Source of the DNA: a bacterium
Lineage (GTDB): Bacteria > Desulfobacterota > Desulfocorpusculales > Desulfocorpusculum
Length of the DNA stretch: 64,000 bases
Direction of reading: 5' to 3'
NCBI GenBank assembly: GCA_037481695.1
Contig: JBBFLE010000017.1
Coordinates: forward strand, 1 to 64,000
Part shown: piece after piece, positions 6,657-13,294 of the stretch
Layout of the letters: every line of letters begins with the position of its first letter
How positions within the stretch are numbered: the stretch's first letter is position 1
Program-made: the position numbers and the translations under genes
The notes under the pieces: model-generated
The model's database searches: none
Told to the model about the DNA's origin: nothing
What the model saw: only the letters and a program-made list of their open reading frames with translations

Positions 6657-9368
6657 ATGGCAGAAAGATATGTTTACACATTCGGAGGTGAACGCGCCGA
6701 CGGCGGGGAGGCCCTTCGTAACCTCTTGGGAGGCAAGGGTGCAGGGCTGGCGGAGATGACCAATCTGGGTATACCGGTGCCACCTGGGTTCACCATAACC
6801 ACAGAGGTCTGCACTTATTATTATGCCCACAACAGGAGCTATCCCCCTGGACTCCAGGAGCAGGTGCAGGAGGCCATGGCCCACGTGGAGAGGCTCATGA
6901 AGGCCAAGTTCGGAGACCCCCAAAATCCGCTTTTGGTATCGGTGCGCTCTGGGGCCAGGAGATCCATGCCAGGCATGATGGAAACAGTCCTCAACGTGGG
7001 GCTCACCAGCAAGACCTTGCCCGGACTCATTCGCAAGACCAACAACGAGAGGTTTGCTTACGATGCGTATAGAAGGCTGATAATGATGTACTCAGACGTG
7101 GTCATGGAGAAGGCTCAGGGCATCGAGCCTCCCGAGGGTCAGGGGATCCGCCAGATCTTGGAAAGGGAAATGGATCACCTAAAGGAGAAAAGAGGCGTCA
7201 AACTCGACACTGAGCTGACAGCAGAAGACCTCAAGGAGCTGGTGGAGATATTTCTCAAGAAGGTGAAAGAGGTGATGGGAAAGCCCTTCCCAGATGACCC
7301 CCAAGAGCAGCTTTGGGGAGGAATCGGGGCTGTTTTCCAATCCTGGAACGGCAAGAGGGCTGTTTCTTACAGGCGGATCGAGGGAATCCCGGACGACTGG
7401 GGAACAGCAGTGAACGTGCAGGCCATGGTCTTTGGAAACACGGGGGAGAGGTCAGCCACCGGGGTGGCCTTCACCAGAAATCCGGCCACAGGGGAAAATC
7501 TTTTCTATGGAGAGTGGCTGCCCAATGCCCAGGGCGAGGATGTGGTGGCGGGGATTCGGACTCCTCTGCCTTTGAACAGGGCCACCAAGAGCGGGGAGGC
7601 AGCCTCCTTGCCTTCTCTGGAGGAGGTTATGCCAGAACTTTACCAGCAGCTGGACACCATACAGCGCAAGCTAGAGACCTACTTTCGGGATATGCAGGAC
7701 ATAGAGTTCACTATCCAGGACGGAACCCTATGGATGCTTCAGACCCGCACAGGCAAGCGAAACGGTACTGCGGCCATTAGAATGGCTGTGGAGATGTGCA
7801 AGGAGGGTCTAATAAGCAAGGAGGAGGCTCTTTTGAGGGTGCAGCCATCTCAGTTGGATGAGCTATTGCATCCCATGCTGGATCCTGTGGAGGAGAAAAA
7901 GGCCAGGCCGCTTGCCAAAGGGCTTCCTGCAGGGCCTGGGGGGGCAGTGGGGCAGGTGGTGTTTACAGCCGATGACGCAGAACAGTGGGCCAAGAAGGGC
8001 AAGAAGGTGGTCCTGGTCAGGGCCGAAACCTCTCCGGAGGATGTTCATGGAATGCATGCTGCCCAGGCCATCCTGACCTCCAAAGGAGGCATGACCAGCC
8101 ATGCAGCCCTCGTGGCCAGGGGGTGGGGTAAGTGCTGCATAGTGGGTTGTGGTGCCTTGGACATTGATGTGGAGTCAAGGACCGTAAGAGTTGAGGGGGA
8201 GGTGCTCAGGGAGGGGGACTGGGTAACCCTCAATGGCACAAAAGGTGTGTTGTACAAGGGTCAGATGAAACTTCTTCCAGCAGACCCAGAGGGAAACCCC
8301 TGGTACAAGGAACTCATGGTATGGGCGGACCAGGTGAGGCGCCTGGGCATCAGGACCAATGCCGACACTCCCTCAGATGCCGCTCTGGCCAGATCCTTTG
8401 GAGCTGAGGGCATTGGGCTTTGCCGCACCGAGCACATGTTCTTTGATCCGCAGCGCATCATGGCCATGAGGGAGATGATAGTTGCTGAGACCGAGGAGGA
8501 CAGGCGCAAGGCCGTGATGAAGCTACTGCCTTACCAGAGGGAGGATTTCCTGGGCATTTTCAGGGCAATGGAAGGCCTGCCTGTGACCATAAGGACCTTG
8601 GACCCGCCTCTGCACGAGTTCGTGAATCTGAGTGCCGAACAGGTAAAAGATCTGGCAGCACAAATGGGCATCCCGGTGGAGAGGCTTCAGGCTAGAATCG
8701 ACCAGCTCCACGAGCTGAACCCCATGTTGGGCCACAGGGGATGCCGTCTGGGAATAACCTATCCTGAAATAACCGAAATGCAGGCTAGGGCCATCTTCGA
8801 GGCCGCGGCCCAGATGGCCCAGGAAGGCAAAGAGGTTTTTCCGGAGGTCATGATCCCACTGGTGGGAAGTCTGAAGGAACTGGATCACCAACAGGAAATA
8901 GTGGAGAGAGTGGCCAAGGAAGTGCAGGCCCAGAAGGGGGTCAAATTTCCCTACCTGGTGGGCACCATGATAGAGATCCCCAGGGCCTGTCTTGTGGCAG
9001 ACCAGATAGCCAGCAGAGCCCAGTTCTTCTCCTTTGGAACCAATGACCTGACCCAGACCACTTTCGGCTTTTCCAGGGATGATGTGGGTTCTTTCCTGCC
9101 AGTTTATCTGGAAAAGAAGATACTGCCATCAGATCCTTTCCAGACCCTTGACCAGGAAGGTGTGGGACAGTTGATCCGCATGGGCGTGGAAAAAGGTAGA
9201 TCAGCCAGAAAGGACCTCAAGGTGGGGATATGTGGAGAGCATGGAGGAGATCCCGCATCTGTGGAATTCTGCCACAGGGTGGGAATGAACTACGTAAGCT
9301 GCTCACCTTACAGAGTCCCCATAGCCAGACTGGCTGCCGCTCATGCAGCAGTAAAGGATAAGGGCTGA
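6657..9368 (+). CDS. ppdK: Pyruvate, phosphate dikinase
   Basis: A 903-residue enzyme interconverting pyruvate + ATP + Pi and phosphoenolpyruvate + AMP + PPi, used for gluconeogenesis from pyruvate or PPi-linked glycolysis in anaerobes. The N-terminal ATP-binding domain begins YVYTFGGERADGGEALRNLL. The swivelling phosphohistidine domain has GGMTSHAALVARGWGK (His482). The C-terminal TIM barrel ends with the catalytic loop GICGEHGGDP (Cys859). The order and length are standard. ATG 6657 follows GGGAGGAATTACAG; the open frame continues upstream into mlaC, but homologues begin here. Confidence 0.97.
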   Translation: MAERYVYTFGGERADGGEALRNLLGGKGAGLAEMTNLGIPVPPGFTITTEVCTYYYAHNRSYPPGLQEQVQEAMAHVERLMKAKFGDPQNPLLVSVRSGARRSMPGMMETVLNVGLTSKTLPGLIRKTNNERFAYDAYRRLIMMYSDVVMEKAQGIEPPEGQGIRQILEREMDHLKEKRGVKLDTELTAEDLKELVEIFLKKVKEVMGKPFPDDPQEQLWGGIGAVFQSWNGKRAVSYRRIEGIPDDWGTAVNVQAMVFGNTGERSATGVAFTRNPATGENLFYGEWLPNAQGEDVVAGIRTPLPLNRATKSGEAASLPSLEEVMPELYQQLDTIQRKLETYFRDMQDIEFTIQDGTLWMLQTRTGKRNGTAAIRMAVEMCKEGLISKEEALLRVQPSQLDELLHPMLDPVEEKKARPLAKGLPAGPGGAVGQVVFTADDAEQWAKKGKKVVLVRAETSPEDVHGMHAAQAILTSKGGMTSHAALVARGWGKCCIVGCGALDIDVESRTVRVEGEVLREGDWVTLNGTKGVLYKGQMKLLPADPEGNPWYKELMVWADQVRRLGIRTNADTPSDAALARSFGAEGIGLCRTEHMFFDPQRIMAMREMIVAETEEDRRKAVMKLLPYQREDFLGIFRAMEGLPVTIRTLDPPLHEFVNLSAEQVKDLAAQMGIPVERLQARIDQLHELNPMLGHRGCRLGITYPEITEMQARAIFEAAAQMAQEGKEVFPEVMIPLVGSLKELDHQQEIVERVAKEVQAQKGVKFPYLVGTMIEIPRACLVADQIASRAQFFSFGTNDLTQTTFGFSRDDVGSFLPVYLEKKILPSDPFQTLDQEGVGQLIRMGVEKGRSARKDLKVGICGEHGGDPASVEFCHRVGMNYVSCSPYRVPIARLAAAHAAVKDKG

Positions 9369-9379
9369 CATAAGAAGGG

Positions 9380-9411
9380 GGGGGACGGGTTGGACAATGG
9401 ACCTGTCCCCC
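9380..9411 (+). terminator. Strong hairpin after ppdK
   Basis: An 11-bp stem (one G-U pair) made by GGGGGACGGGT and ACCTGTCCCCC with a 10-base loop, 11 bases after the ppdK stop. No U-tract follows, so it may be a transcript-stabilising end rather than an intrinsic terminator. Confidence 0.5.
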
Positions 9412-9483
9412 AGCCCAAATCTTCCAAAGCATACCAAATATTGTGGCCTACCTAATATCGGACACATCTTGTTGTGAATTTGC

Positions 9484-9512
9484 TTTACATGGCCTTACCA
9501 GCCAAATATAAT
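9484..9512 (+). promoter_or_regulatory. Near-consensus sigma70 promoter upstream of smc
   Basis: TTTACA (9484-9489), 17 bases, TATAAT (9507-9512). It is the best-spaced promoter in the window. It starts transcription about 230 bases before smc, into the non-coding structured stretch described next. Confidence 0.7.
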
Positions 9513-9518
9513 GATGTC

Positions 9519-9592
9519 CGCAGTCAGACTAGTAGCTATGGGCTGAAATTGTAGGCCTGTTAGCGCATGTGGGTGGGAAAGCCCACTTTTTT
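9519..9592 (+). ncRNA. Candidate small RNA or attenuated leader
   Basis: From the expected start (~9519) of the strong promoter, the RNA runs about 70 bases with no start codon behind a ribosome site and ends in a hairpin followed by six Ts. It matches no RNA class I recognise. It could be a free-standing small RNA or a terminated leader of smc. It is inferred only from promoter plus terminator. Confidence 0.4.
9568..9592 (+). terminator. Intrinsic terminator-like hairpin with U-tract
   Basis: The stem GTGGGT/GCCCAC (9569-9574 with 9581-9586, one G-U pair) has loop GGGAAA and is followed by TTTTTT (9587-9592). It lies 56 bases after the TATAAT box and ahead of smc. Confidence 0.55.
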
Positions 9593-9607
9593 GAATTCCT
9601 TTTTGGG

Positions 9608-9681
9608 GCTGTGGCCTCAGCAAGAGGTTTCCGGAGAAACCTCTGGGGGGAAATACCGGGAGATGACCGAGTTGTTCCCGG
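9608..9681 (+). other. Tandem perfect hairpins in the smc leader
   Basis: Three consecutive stem-loops: GCTG/CAGC (9608-9621); a perfect 9-bp stem AGAGGTTTC/GAAACCTCT with a 4-base loop (9623-9644); and CCGGGA/TCCCGG with a 14-base loop (9656-9681). A near-palindrome centred on CCATGG follows. There is no coding frame. I could not match it to a known riboswitch. Confidence 0.45.
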
Positions 9682-9748
9682 CTGGGCATCCATGGTGCTG
9701 GCTGCAAAGAAAAATCTGGGCATATAAAAGGGTGGACGGAAGGAATAG

Positions 9749-12700
9749 ATGAGGCTTAAGAAGGTGGAGATCAGTGGTTTTAAGTCCTTCAGGGAAAAAA
9801 CGGTCCTCATGTTCCAGGAGGGAGTCACGGCCATTGTAGGGCCTAATGGATGCGGGAAAAGCAACATAGTGGATGCCATCAGGTGGGCCATGGGCGAGGC
9901 CAGTGCCAGGGCTCTTAGGGGTCAGGGCATGGAGGATGTGATCTTTCATGGTACTGATCAACAGGGTCCTTTGGGAATGGCCGAGGTGAGTCTTACCTTT
10001 GAAAACGTAAACGGGAATGCCCCTGCCCACCTTTCAGGCTGTTCAGAGATAGAGGTCACCCGAAGGCTGTTTCGTTCGGGGGAAAGTGAATACTGCATAA
10101 ACAGGGTGCCCTGCCGTAGAAAGGATGTGTGGGAGCTTTTTATGGATACGGGGCTGGGCAACAGATCCTATGCCATAGTTGAGCAGGATCGGGTCTCCCA
10201 CATCATATCGGCCCGGCCAGAGGAGCGAAGGGTAGTAGTGGAGGAGGTGGCTGGCATCAGCCGCTACAAGAGCCGCAGGGAGGCGGCCCAGCGAAAGATG
10301 GAGGCCACAGGTCAAAATCTGGAGCGCATAAAAGACATCTGCCGTGAGGTGGGTCAGCAGATCCATAGCCTGGAAAGACAGGCCAGAAAGGCCGAGCGTT
10401 ACAGGAGTCTCAGAGCCCAGATCCTGGAGCTGGAGCGGAACTCTGTTCTCAGGAAGTGGGCCCTTCTGGATCGGGAGAGATCATCGCTCCAGGAGCGCCT
10501 CAAGCAATTAAGGTGGGAGAGGGATGGGCTGAACTCAGCCATGGAAGCAGGGGAAATGGAATTGGAAAGGCAAAAGGTGCTTCTCCTGGAGATGGAAAAA
10601 GGGCTCTTGGAGGCTCAGGAAGAGCTTCACAGACGGGAGAAGGCCTTGGCCGAGCTGGAAAACAGAATCAGGCGGGAATCAGAAGAGGAAAAAAACCTGG
10701 AGTCCTCCAGGAGCCTATGGGAGAAGGATATTGCCAGGCTGGAAGCCCGCCTGGGATCTGTGCGGGAAAGGATTTTTTCTCTTGCCTCAGAAAAAGAGGC
10801 CATCAGAAAACAGCAGCAGCACACAGAATCCAGACTGGAAGAACTCACGGGCTTGTTGAAAAAGGGGATGGAAAAGGAGCGGGTGCTCAAGGCCGCCTTG
10901 GAGGAAAACAGGCTGGAGCTTGTGGAATGGATGGGGGAGAGGGCCAGGCTCAAAAATGGGATTCAGCACAATTGCCGAAGGTCCGAGGAGTTGAAGAAAC
11001 TCATTGAAAAGGCAAAAGGGGAACAAGAAGGCCTGGAGAAGAAATTGGAAGAGATGAGCCTGGCAGGCTCTTCCCTTGAAGGTGGGATCCGGGATCTAGA
11101 AGAGGCCTTGGCCAAGCTCAAGGCCAGAAGGGATGAAATCAAGGAAGAGCTCTCGTCTCTTCAGGCCCAAAGAGAGCAGATGAGATCCAAGCTTAAGAAC
11201 CTTGAGAGCTCCATACAGGCTATGGGATCCAGAATAAAGGCCTTGCAAGGGCTGCAGGAGGATCTGGCAGGCTTCTCCGAGGGAATTCGGGCCCTCAGGG
11301 AGGCCATTCAAAAAGGCCAGCTCAGCCTCGGGATCTCATCCCCCAGGGTGGTGGCAGAGGTTGTGGATGTCCCGGATGGAGTGGATGCAGCTGTGGCAGG
11401 GCTCCTGGGAGAGCGAATGCAGTACCTCATGGTGGAAAACTGGGAACAGGCCCTGAAGGCCCTGGCCTTTGTGAAGGAAAAAGGGCTGGGGCGGGTGGGA
11501 ATTGTGGCCCTTGAGGCATGCGGAAAAGAAGGCCCTGAGCCTTTTTGCACGGATCAGACGGATCTGGGTCTTTCCTGGGAGTCTGGATTTGGTTCTGTGG
11601 GTGAGCTGCTCCTTGGAGAGGTGAGGCTGGCAAAGAATCTGGAAGAAGCCATCCATGGAGGGCTCTGCCAAGGTCAAGGCCGGTGGGTCACCCTGCAAGG
11701 CGATGTGCTGGATCCCAGAGGGCTCGTGGAAGGAGGCGATGCCAGGGATCCTTCCAAGGGGTATTTGGCCAGAAGAAGAGAGCTCAAGGAGTTGAAAGAG
11801 AGGCTGGAGAAGCTGGAAGCCGAAAGCCGGCTGCAGTGGGATCAGCAAAGAGAGTTATCGCAAAAGATATCTGTTCTCTCCTCTGAAGCAGACAACTTGC
11901 TGGAGCTCATTCACGCCAAGGAATTGAGACTTGCAGAGTGTCGAAGGGACTTTCTCTCTTCCAGGGAAGCGGCAGGCAGCTTGAGACAAAGGCTAGAGGC
12001 CTTGAAATGGCAACTTGGGTTACACAAGGAAGAACTGGGATCTGTGGGAACAGCCCTGGAGGAGGACTCCATTCGACTAGAGGGATTGGAAAAGAGCATT
12101 GATAACAGGGAGCATAACCTCAAAGATCTGGAGCAAGAGCATTCAGAGGCAGTGGCCGAGCTGGAGGGACTTAGGGAGGAAGTAACCAGGGTGCAGGTGG
12201 CTGTGGCTTCTCTTGCAGAACGCTTGAATGCTTCCCATAGGGAGATGCAGGGCCTGGAGGTACAAAGCGCAGAGCTCTCCCAGGAACTTTCCAGGAAGCA
12301 GGTACAGAGGCAAAGGGGGCTCAAGAGGTTGGAAGAGCTCAGGGCCTCTCTGGCTGAGCTTCGCAAGGAGTTGAGCCGTCTCATGGAAGGTCACAGGGTG
12401 GCGGCCCAAGACCTGCAAAGGGCCAAGAGTGAAGCGCAGCAGAACAGAGAAAGCCTTCTTGAGATGGAAGCATGCCAGCAGGCCAGGAGGCAAAGAGTTC
12501 GTGCCCTGGAGCGAGAGTTACAGCAGATGGAACTGCAGGAGAGGGAGCTGGCCTTGCGCATGGAGCACTCTCAAGGGGAACTCCAGGGAAGGCTGGAGAT
12601 GAAAGCAGAGGAAATCCCTTTGGCAGCAGCCGGGGCAGTGCTTCAAGATCTATCCCAAGCTGAGGCTCAGATATCCTCCTTGAAGGAGGCCCTGGAGCGC

Positions 12701-13294
12701 CTTGGAGATGTGAACCTGGCAGCTGCCGAGCAATACAGGGAACTCAAGGACAGGTATGATAGTCTGAACGCTCAAAAGGAGGACCTGGAAAACTCTGTTG
12801 CCTTGCTCAAGAAGGCCATCCAGAGGATAGACAGAACCTCCCGCAAGAGATTCAGAGAAGCCTTTGAAAGGCTGGATCAGGAATTCAGAAAGGTTTTTCC
12901 CATACTCTTTGAGGGAGGGGAGGCCCACCTGGCCCTGACAGAGGCAGAAGACATATTGGATGCGGGAGTGGAGATAATCGCCAGACCCCCTGGAAAAAAG
13001 CTCCAGAGTATCTCTCTCCTGTCAGGAGGGGAAAAGGCTTTGGCTGCAGTAGCCCTGATCTTTGCCATGATCAGAATCAAAGAGACGCCCTTTTGCCTTT
13101 TCGACGAGGTGGACGCCCCGCTGGATGATGCCAACATAGATCGCTTCAACAAGATGGTAAGGGAGCTTTCCCACAAGTCCCAGTTCATCTTGGTCACCCA
13201 CAGCAAACGCACCATGGAAATTGCCGATGTGCTCTATGGGGTCACCATGGAGACCCCTGGAATCTCCAAGATGATTTCGGTGAGGCTTCAGTGA
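9749..13294 (+). CDS. smc: Chromosome segregation ATPase SMC
   Basis: A 1181-residue SMC protein, the motor of the SMC-ScpAB condensin that compacts and segregates the chromosome. The N-terminal head has MRLKKVEISGFKSFREKT and Walker A GPNGCGKSNIVDAI. Two long coiled coils flank a hinge around residues 500-670 (GERMQYLMVENWEQAL lies within it). The C-terminal head has signature LLSGGEKALAAVALIFA and Walker B FCLFDEVDAPLDD. The length is typical. ATG 9749 follows GGAAGGAATAG. Its partner scpA begins at the far end of the window, not beside it. ftsY is next, a pairing seen in many bacteria. Confidence 0.97.
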   Translation: MRLKKVEISGFKSFREKTVLMFQEGVTAIVGPNGCGKSNIVDAIRWAMGEASARALRGQGMEDVIFHGTDQQGPLGMAEVSLTFENVNGNAPAHLSGCSEIEVTRRLFRSGESEYCINRVPCRRKDVWELFMDTGLGNRSYAIVEQDRVSHIISARPEERRVVVEEVAGISRYKSRREAAQRKMEATGQNLERIKDICREVGQQIHSLERQARKAERYRSLRAQILELERNSVLRKWALLDRERSSLQERLKQLRWERDGLNSAMEAGEMELERQKVLLLEMEKGLLEAQEELHRREKALAELENRIRRESEEEKNLESSRSLWEKDIARLEARLGSVRERIFSLASEKEAIRKQQQHTESRLEELTGLLKKGMEKERVLKAALEENRLELVEWMGERARLKNGIQHNCRRSEELKKLIEKAKGEQEGLEKKLEEMSLAGSSLEGGIRDLEEALAKLKARRDEIKEELSSLQAQREQMRSKLKNLESSIQAMGSRIKALQGLQEDLAGFSEGIRALREAIQKGQLSLGISSPRVVAEVVDVPDGVDAAVAGLLGERMQYLMVENWEQALKALAFVKEKGLGRVGIVALEACGKEGPEPFCTDQTDLGLSWESGFGSVGELLLGEVRLAKNLEEAIHGGLCQGQGRWVTLQGDVLDPRGLVEGGDARDPSKGYLARRRELKELKERLEKLEAESRLQWDQQRELSQKISVLSSEADNLLELIHAKELRLAECRRDFLSSREAAGSLRQRLEALKWQLGLHKEELGSVGTALEEDSIRLEGLEKSIDNREHNLKDLEQEHSEAVAELEGLREEVTRVQVAVASLAERLNASHREMQGLEVQSAELSQELSRKQVQRQRGLKRLEELRASLAELRKELSRLMEGHRVAAQDLQRAKSEAQQNRESLLEMEACQQARRQRVRALERELQQMELQERELALRMEHSQGELQGRLEMKAEEIPLAAAGAVLQDLSQAEAQISSLKEALERLGDVNLAAAEQYRELKDRYDSLNAQKEDLENSVALLKKAIQRIDRTSRKRFREAFERLDQEFRKVFPILFEGGEAHLALTEAEDILDAGVEIIARPPGKKLQSISLLSGGEKALAAVALIFAMIRIKETPFCLFDEVDAPLDDANIDRFNKMVRELSHKSQFILVTHSKRTMEIADVLYGVTMETPGISKMISVRLQ

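Follow-up and report, generated by a model that had tools for sequence, protein, structure and literature searches.

A TTTACA promoter kept before smc across the phylum, and a probable lineage-specific leader with an early terminator behind it

The smc gene of the window (the whole 64,000-nucleotide stretch of DNA analysed here) is preceded by a promoter that, judged by sequence comparison, is the ancestral smc promoter kept across the phylum, and behind it lies what is probably a long leader peculiar to this lineage, in which an intrinsic terminator comes early (Table 1). The phylum-wide TTTACA promoter is the more solid and durable of these two results. TTTACA-N17-TATAAT had been reported upstream of smc in the preliminary description and is present exactly as claimed there; promoter scoring of the sequence gives it 11/12 with a spacing of 17, and, like its counterpart in the sister genus, it has the two near-TTGACA/TATAAT hexamers, 16–18 nt apart, of a sigma-70-type promoter. 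With both strands of the 4.1-Mb genome counted, TTKACA-N16-18-TATAAT occurs 11 times, this promoter among them (reversed control, 1). The promoter scan found no second site of at least 9/12, and the nearest alternative -10 before smc, TATAAA at 9723, lacks a fitting -35.

Table 1. Features of the ppdK-smc region (window positions)
Feature	Position	Strand	Basis or remark
ppdK (pyruvate phosphate dikinase), gene upstream	6657..9368	+	gene order common to sister genus
strong hairpin 3' of ppdK stop codon, GGGGGACGGGT/ACCTGTCCCCC, without T run	9380..9411	+	fold
upstream arm of smc promoter	9471..9483	+	resembles phylum consensus TTGTATTTTTnnC weakly (13.7 bits, TTTACA included)
smc promoter TTTACA-N17-TATAAT	9484..9512	+	sequence; hexamers and spacing identical in sister genus, 86 bp before smc
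terminated leader RNA, ~74 nt	9519..9592	+	predicted: start from promoter, end from T run
first leader stem-loop	9535..9564	+	fold
intrinsic terminator, 6-bp stem GTGGGT/GCCCAC (9569-9586), then TTTTTT (9587-9592)	9569..9592	+	fold, -8.9 kcal/mol
AUUCCUU, complement of 9740-9746 in smc ribosome site, which it might sequester	9595..9601	+	predicted
leader stem-loop, 6 bp, weaker	9604..9619	+	fold
leader stem-loop, perfect 9 bp, without T run	9623..9644	+	sequence
leader stem-loop, 6 bp CCGGGA/TCCCGG, weaker; competing pairings in fold	9656..9681	+	sequence, fold
smc ribosome-binding site GGAAGGAAT	9738..9746	+	sequence
smc, 1181 aa (SMC_N, SMC_hinge)	9749..13294	+	domain matches

The nearest relative with smc (G001) belongs to another genus of the same family and has the gene order of the window, with mla transport genes, ppdK, smc and ftsY. 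Its promoter is the same in both hexamers and in spacing, and its short smc leader contains no terminator and no comparable hairpins. Between the two genera the stretch from ppdK to smc has been rearranged, and only G001 has a DUF3553-like open reading frame there; this small gene (79 aa, L034:6297-6536) lies between ppdK and smc and is missing at that place in the window. In the window's genome the 79-aa protein has just one weak possible relative, located elsewhere (E 0.009). A decayed DUF3553 gene within the leader was considered and rejected, as the G001 protein gives no match in this region. A second SMC-like protein is found in the genome of the window (L033:1501-2004, open frame 329 aa), with 35% identity to the smc N-terminus.

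To sample the phylum, 110 smc loci were collected out of as many as 148 genomes, and 92 to 96 of these loci had a usable start. TTTACA-N16-18-TANNWT is present in 30 of 92 smc upstream regions versus 0.34 expected, at spacings of 16, 17 and 18 in 4, 22 and 4 cases (0.17, 0.10 and 0.07 in dinucleotide shuffles); the shuffles ignore relatedness and some of the genomes are sisters, which is countered by the number of families, about 19 for the strict form (loci matched to genome handles by hand), and by conservation of flanking bases that were not selected for. Thus the base before TTTACA is C in 26 of 26 aligned sites, although C was no part of the search, and the aligned promoters carry a T-rich arm upstream with the consensus TTGTATTTTTnnCTTTACA; such an arm (TTGTATTTTTnnC) usually accompanies the promoter in the smc upstream regions of the phylum. 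TTGACA under the same spacing and -10 rule occurs in 0 of the 92; the L170 smc upstream reads TTGACA-N17-TATAAA. The exact element GTATTTTTNNCTTTACA has 17 sites genome-wide in the 148 genomes, 12 of which sit 32–171 bp before smc, so that the same promoter stands before orthologous smc genes by both measures. The loci L168-L197 and L206-L285 include the smc upstreams that show TTTACA behind the T-rich arm and never TTGACA by that rule.

The standard sigma-70 promoter, TTGACA-N17-TATAAT, has its -10 hexamer and spacing in common with this smc promoter and differs from it in the -35, which in the phylum's smc promoter is TTTACA, usually behind the T-rich arm. A related TTGACA form was counted by hand at 31 occurrences in the 148 genomes, never at mapped smc positions, and those sites that were inspected lie before unrelated genes. 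Since TTTACA is kept before smc whereas the TTGACA form precedes unrelated genes, TTTACA characterises the phylum's smc promoter and the T-rich arm belongs to promoters in general; the distribution suggests that the arm is a general strong-promoter feature of the phylum. For the same reason we rejected the idea that the arm serves as an operator specific to smc: T-rich arms like it also precede TTGACA promoters of unrelated genes, and the arm looks UP-type. We note that GTATTTTTNNCTTGACA is found about 31 times across the 148 genomes; the genes that follow it are unrelated and include TetR- and GntR-like regulators (L287, L292, L296, L298, L310, L321-L327).

Behind the promoter, the hairpin with six Ts that had been described 56 bases downstream is indeed there, a G+C-rich stem-loop with the T run directly after it, as in an intrinsic terminator. 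When the leader was shuffled 500 times, a terminator of equal quality turned up in 3 cases, so its presence exceeds chance, and the 64-kb window holds three such sites on both strands, this one included; strict T-run terminators are thus rare in the window. The three further stem-loops said to precede the smc ribosome site were also recovered, and the perfect 9-bp stem among them is above chance, one being present in 9 of 500 (1.8%) intergenic shuffles. Taken whole, the 230-nt leader is more stably folded than its shuffled versions (z about -2.6, p about 0.012), and the first 76 nt alone fold no better than shuffles (z -0.2), so that the folding of the short RNA is unremarkable except for its terminator.

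This leader is peculiar to the genome under study. Among 48 smc upstream regions with CTTTACA-N15-19-TA, the smc start lies a median of 102 bp from the -35 (range 37–265 bp), the window having the longest such distance, and a terminator-like site lies between promoter and smc in one of the 48, that of the window. No homologue of the leader RNA was found in 39 genomes of relatives, sister genus and family members included, and no second copy in its own genome; the longest leader, the only terminator of 48 and the lack of an RNA homologue together indicate that the leader was added in this lineage to an older promoter. The preliminary description had named missing conservation of the stems among relatives, along with a missing transcript, as what would refute it: the stems have no counterpart in the sister genus or among the rest of the relatives searched, unlike those of a conserved structured RNA, which would be kept with compensatory changes, but the promoter is conserved in both the sister genus and the phylum. 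A contig search with smc found no relatives, and a contig search with ppdK gave 80 distant loci, with smc beside ppdK in none of those kept. The leader RNA is single copy, and a repeat element was rejected on that ground.

The sister genus and the wider phylum have the same promoter before smc, which places the terminator within the transcription unit of smc; if the terminator works, it must cut smc transcription and release a ~74-nt RNA. Comparison thus assigns the promoter to smc and the terminator specifically to this genome, and we infer that the terminator works. RNA polymerase would start about 7 nt past TATAAT, near 9519, and some 70 nt downstream part of the transcripts, perhaps most, would stop as the ~74-nt RNA; the remainder would pass three more hairpins into smc, and the net effect would be a lower, possibly adjustable, smc output. 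Most likely, then, the hairpin leader throttles smc rather than making a known kind of regulatory RNA. Against this stands a stem of just 6 bp with -8.9 kcal/mol, and termination may be weak. Little is on record about the control of smc dosage, and we found no literature on attenuation in an smc leader or on a conserved smc promoter. The conserved TTTACA promoter would be a concrete, testable element in many families, and the terminated leader a candidate for lineage-specific throttling of the condensin gene.

A hairpin that arose by chance or terminates inefficiently, in a leader that is no more than a neutral and slowly changing insertion downstream of the smc promoter, is possible if unlikely. 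The absence of the terminator from all other smc leaders examined and the rearrangement of the intergenic region between the two genera would agree with such an insertion, and selection on the terminator and hairpins cannot be shown, as both are absent from the sister genus and the other 47 promoter-bearing smc leaders have no terminator. The rarity of so good a terminator in shuffles, and of canonical terminators in the window, argues against it.

The region had been described as either an abundant small RNA or an attenuating smc leader, and the comparisons favour the second: the occurrence of the promoter upstream of smc in sister genus and phylum alike speaks for a leader of smc, and the absence of a homologue from the 39 genomes speaks against a stand-alone RNA. 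An independent, trans-acting ~74-nt small RNA gene, with smc transcribed from elsewhere (by read-through from ppdK or from a weak proximal promoter), would fit the strong promoter, the 56-nt gap, the good terminator and the lack of a notable open reading frame in the first 50 nt. We consider such a gene unlikely, and an independent abundant small RNA less likely than the terminated smc leader, as the promoter is the one conserved for smc, the RNA has no relative among the genomes searched, second genome copy or Rfam match, and it folds no better than its shuffles. That no known RNA family is recognisable was borne out: Rfam gave no match in the window at the gathering score, and when relaxed to E up to 10 it gave chance matches only (riboswitches, T-box, 6S and SRP were not matched). 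6S RNA, suggested by a possible 5'/3' closing helix of about 186 nt, was rejected since three genomes of the class give no 6S match and the terminator lies mid-way; SRP RNA was rejected because it is found elsewhere.

A regulated leader is unlikely, though the predicted folds offer one form of it. Here 9520-9527 would pair with 9697-9704 and leave the smc ribosome site free, and masking or loss of this 5' segment would let AUUCCUU block the site, besides any control of termination. Folding of the read-through RNA predicts an openness of 0.86 for the ribosome site when the 5' segment is included (equalled in 4.7% of shuffles) and of 0.04 when everything up to 9592 is deleted (as low in 1.3%), and the better-than-shuffled fold of the whole leader points the same way, so that as a hypothesis from modelled folds the 5' segment may control how accessible the site is. 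However, the arrangement was found after looking, an energy gap of about 6 kcal/mol favours the open form, and there is no homologue for covariation and no ligand, leader peptide or family match. An antiterminator, mutually exclusive with the terminator and of comparable stability, was not found: the only competing pairing found, 9539-9544 with 9580-9585, gives -11.5 versus -21.2 kcal/mol and is thus ~10 kcal/mol weaker than the terminator fold. Before the terminator the RNA has only a 2-codon ATG frame and no short open reading frame with a ribosome site. The smc leader therefore resembles the classical attenuators (trp-type, T-box, riboswitches) in having a terminator between promoter and gene, and differs from them in its lack of a leader peptide, Rfam match or relatives and in its weak competing antiterminator. 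It would be very improbable that both levels, early termination and a ribosome-site sequestration released by the 5' segment, act behind a phylum-wide, smc-specific TTTACA promoter under common regulation.

Early 3' ends in bacterial 5' UTRs are known from 3' end mapping in E. coli (PMC7815308). With the E. coli leader terminators that yield short stable RNAs, the smc leader shares a promoter, a short leader ending upstream of the gene and possibly a stable by-product RNA, but there the 3' ends have been mapped, whereas that of the smc leader is predicted from sequence, and a regulator, uORF or function for it would be hypothetical.

That the hairpins belong to a small protein gene instead of a leader RNA, of 61 aa (9567-9752, ending in an ATGA overlap with smc) or 52 aa (9569-9727), is most improbable: both open frames do span the region, but neither has a homologue beyond chance level in the 148 genomes or a clear ribosome site before its start, and the 61-aa frame has no Pfam match and a coding score at the 4th percentile of real genes.

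Two structures near these promoters may be added. The hairpin just past ppdK has an 11-bp stem preceded by a run of Gs, with no T run, and is probably the 3' end structure of the ppdK mRNA. Palindromic GTATAC motifs (such as TGTATACA) occur just downstream of strong promoters, in the smc leaders L177 and L184 and also at L133, L137 and L138, and are perhaps a repressor operator.
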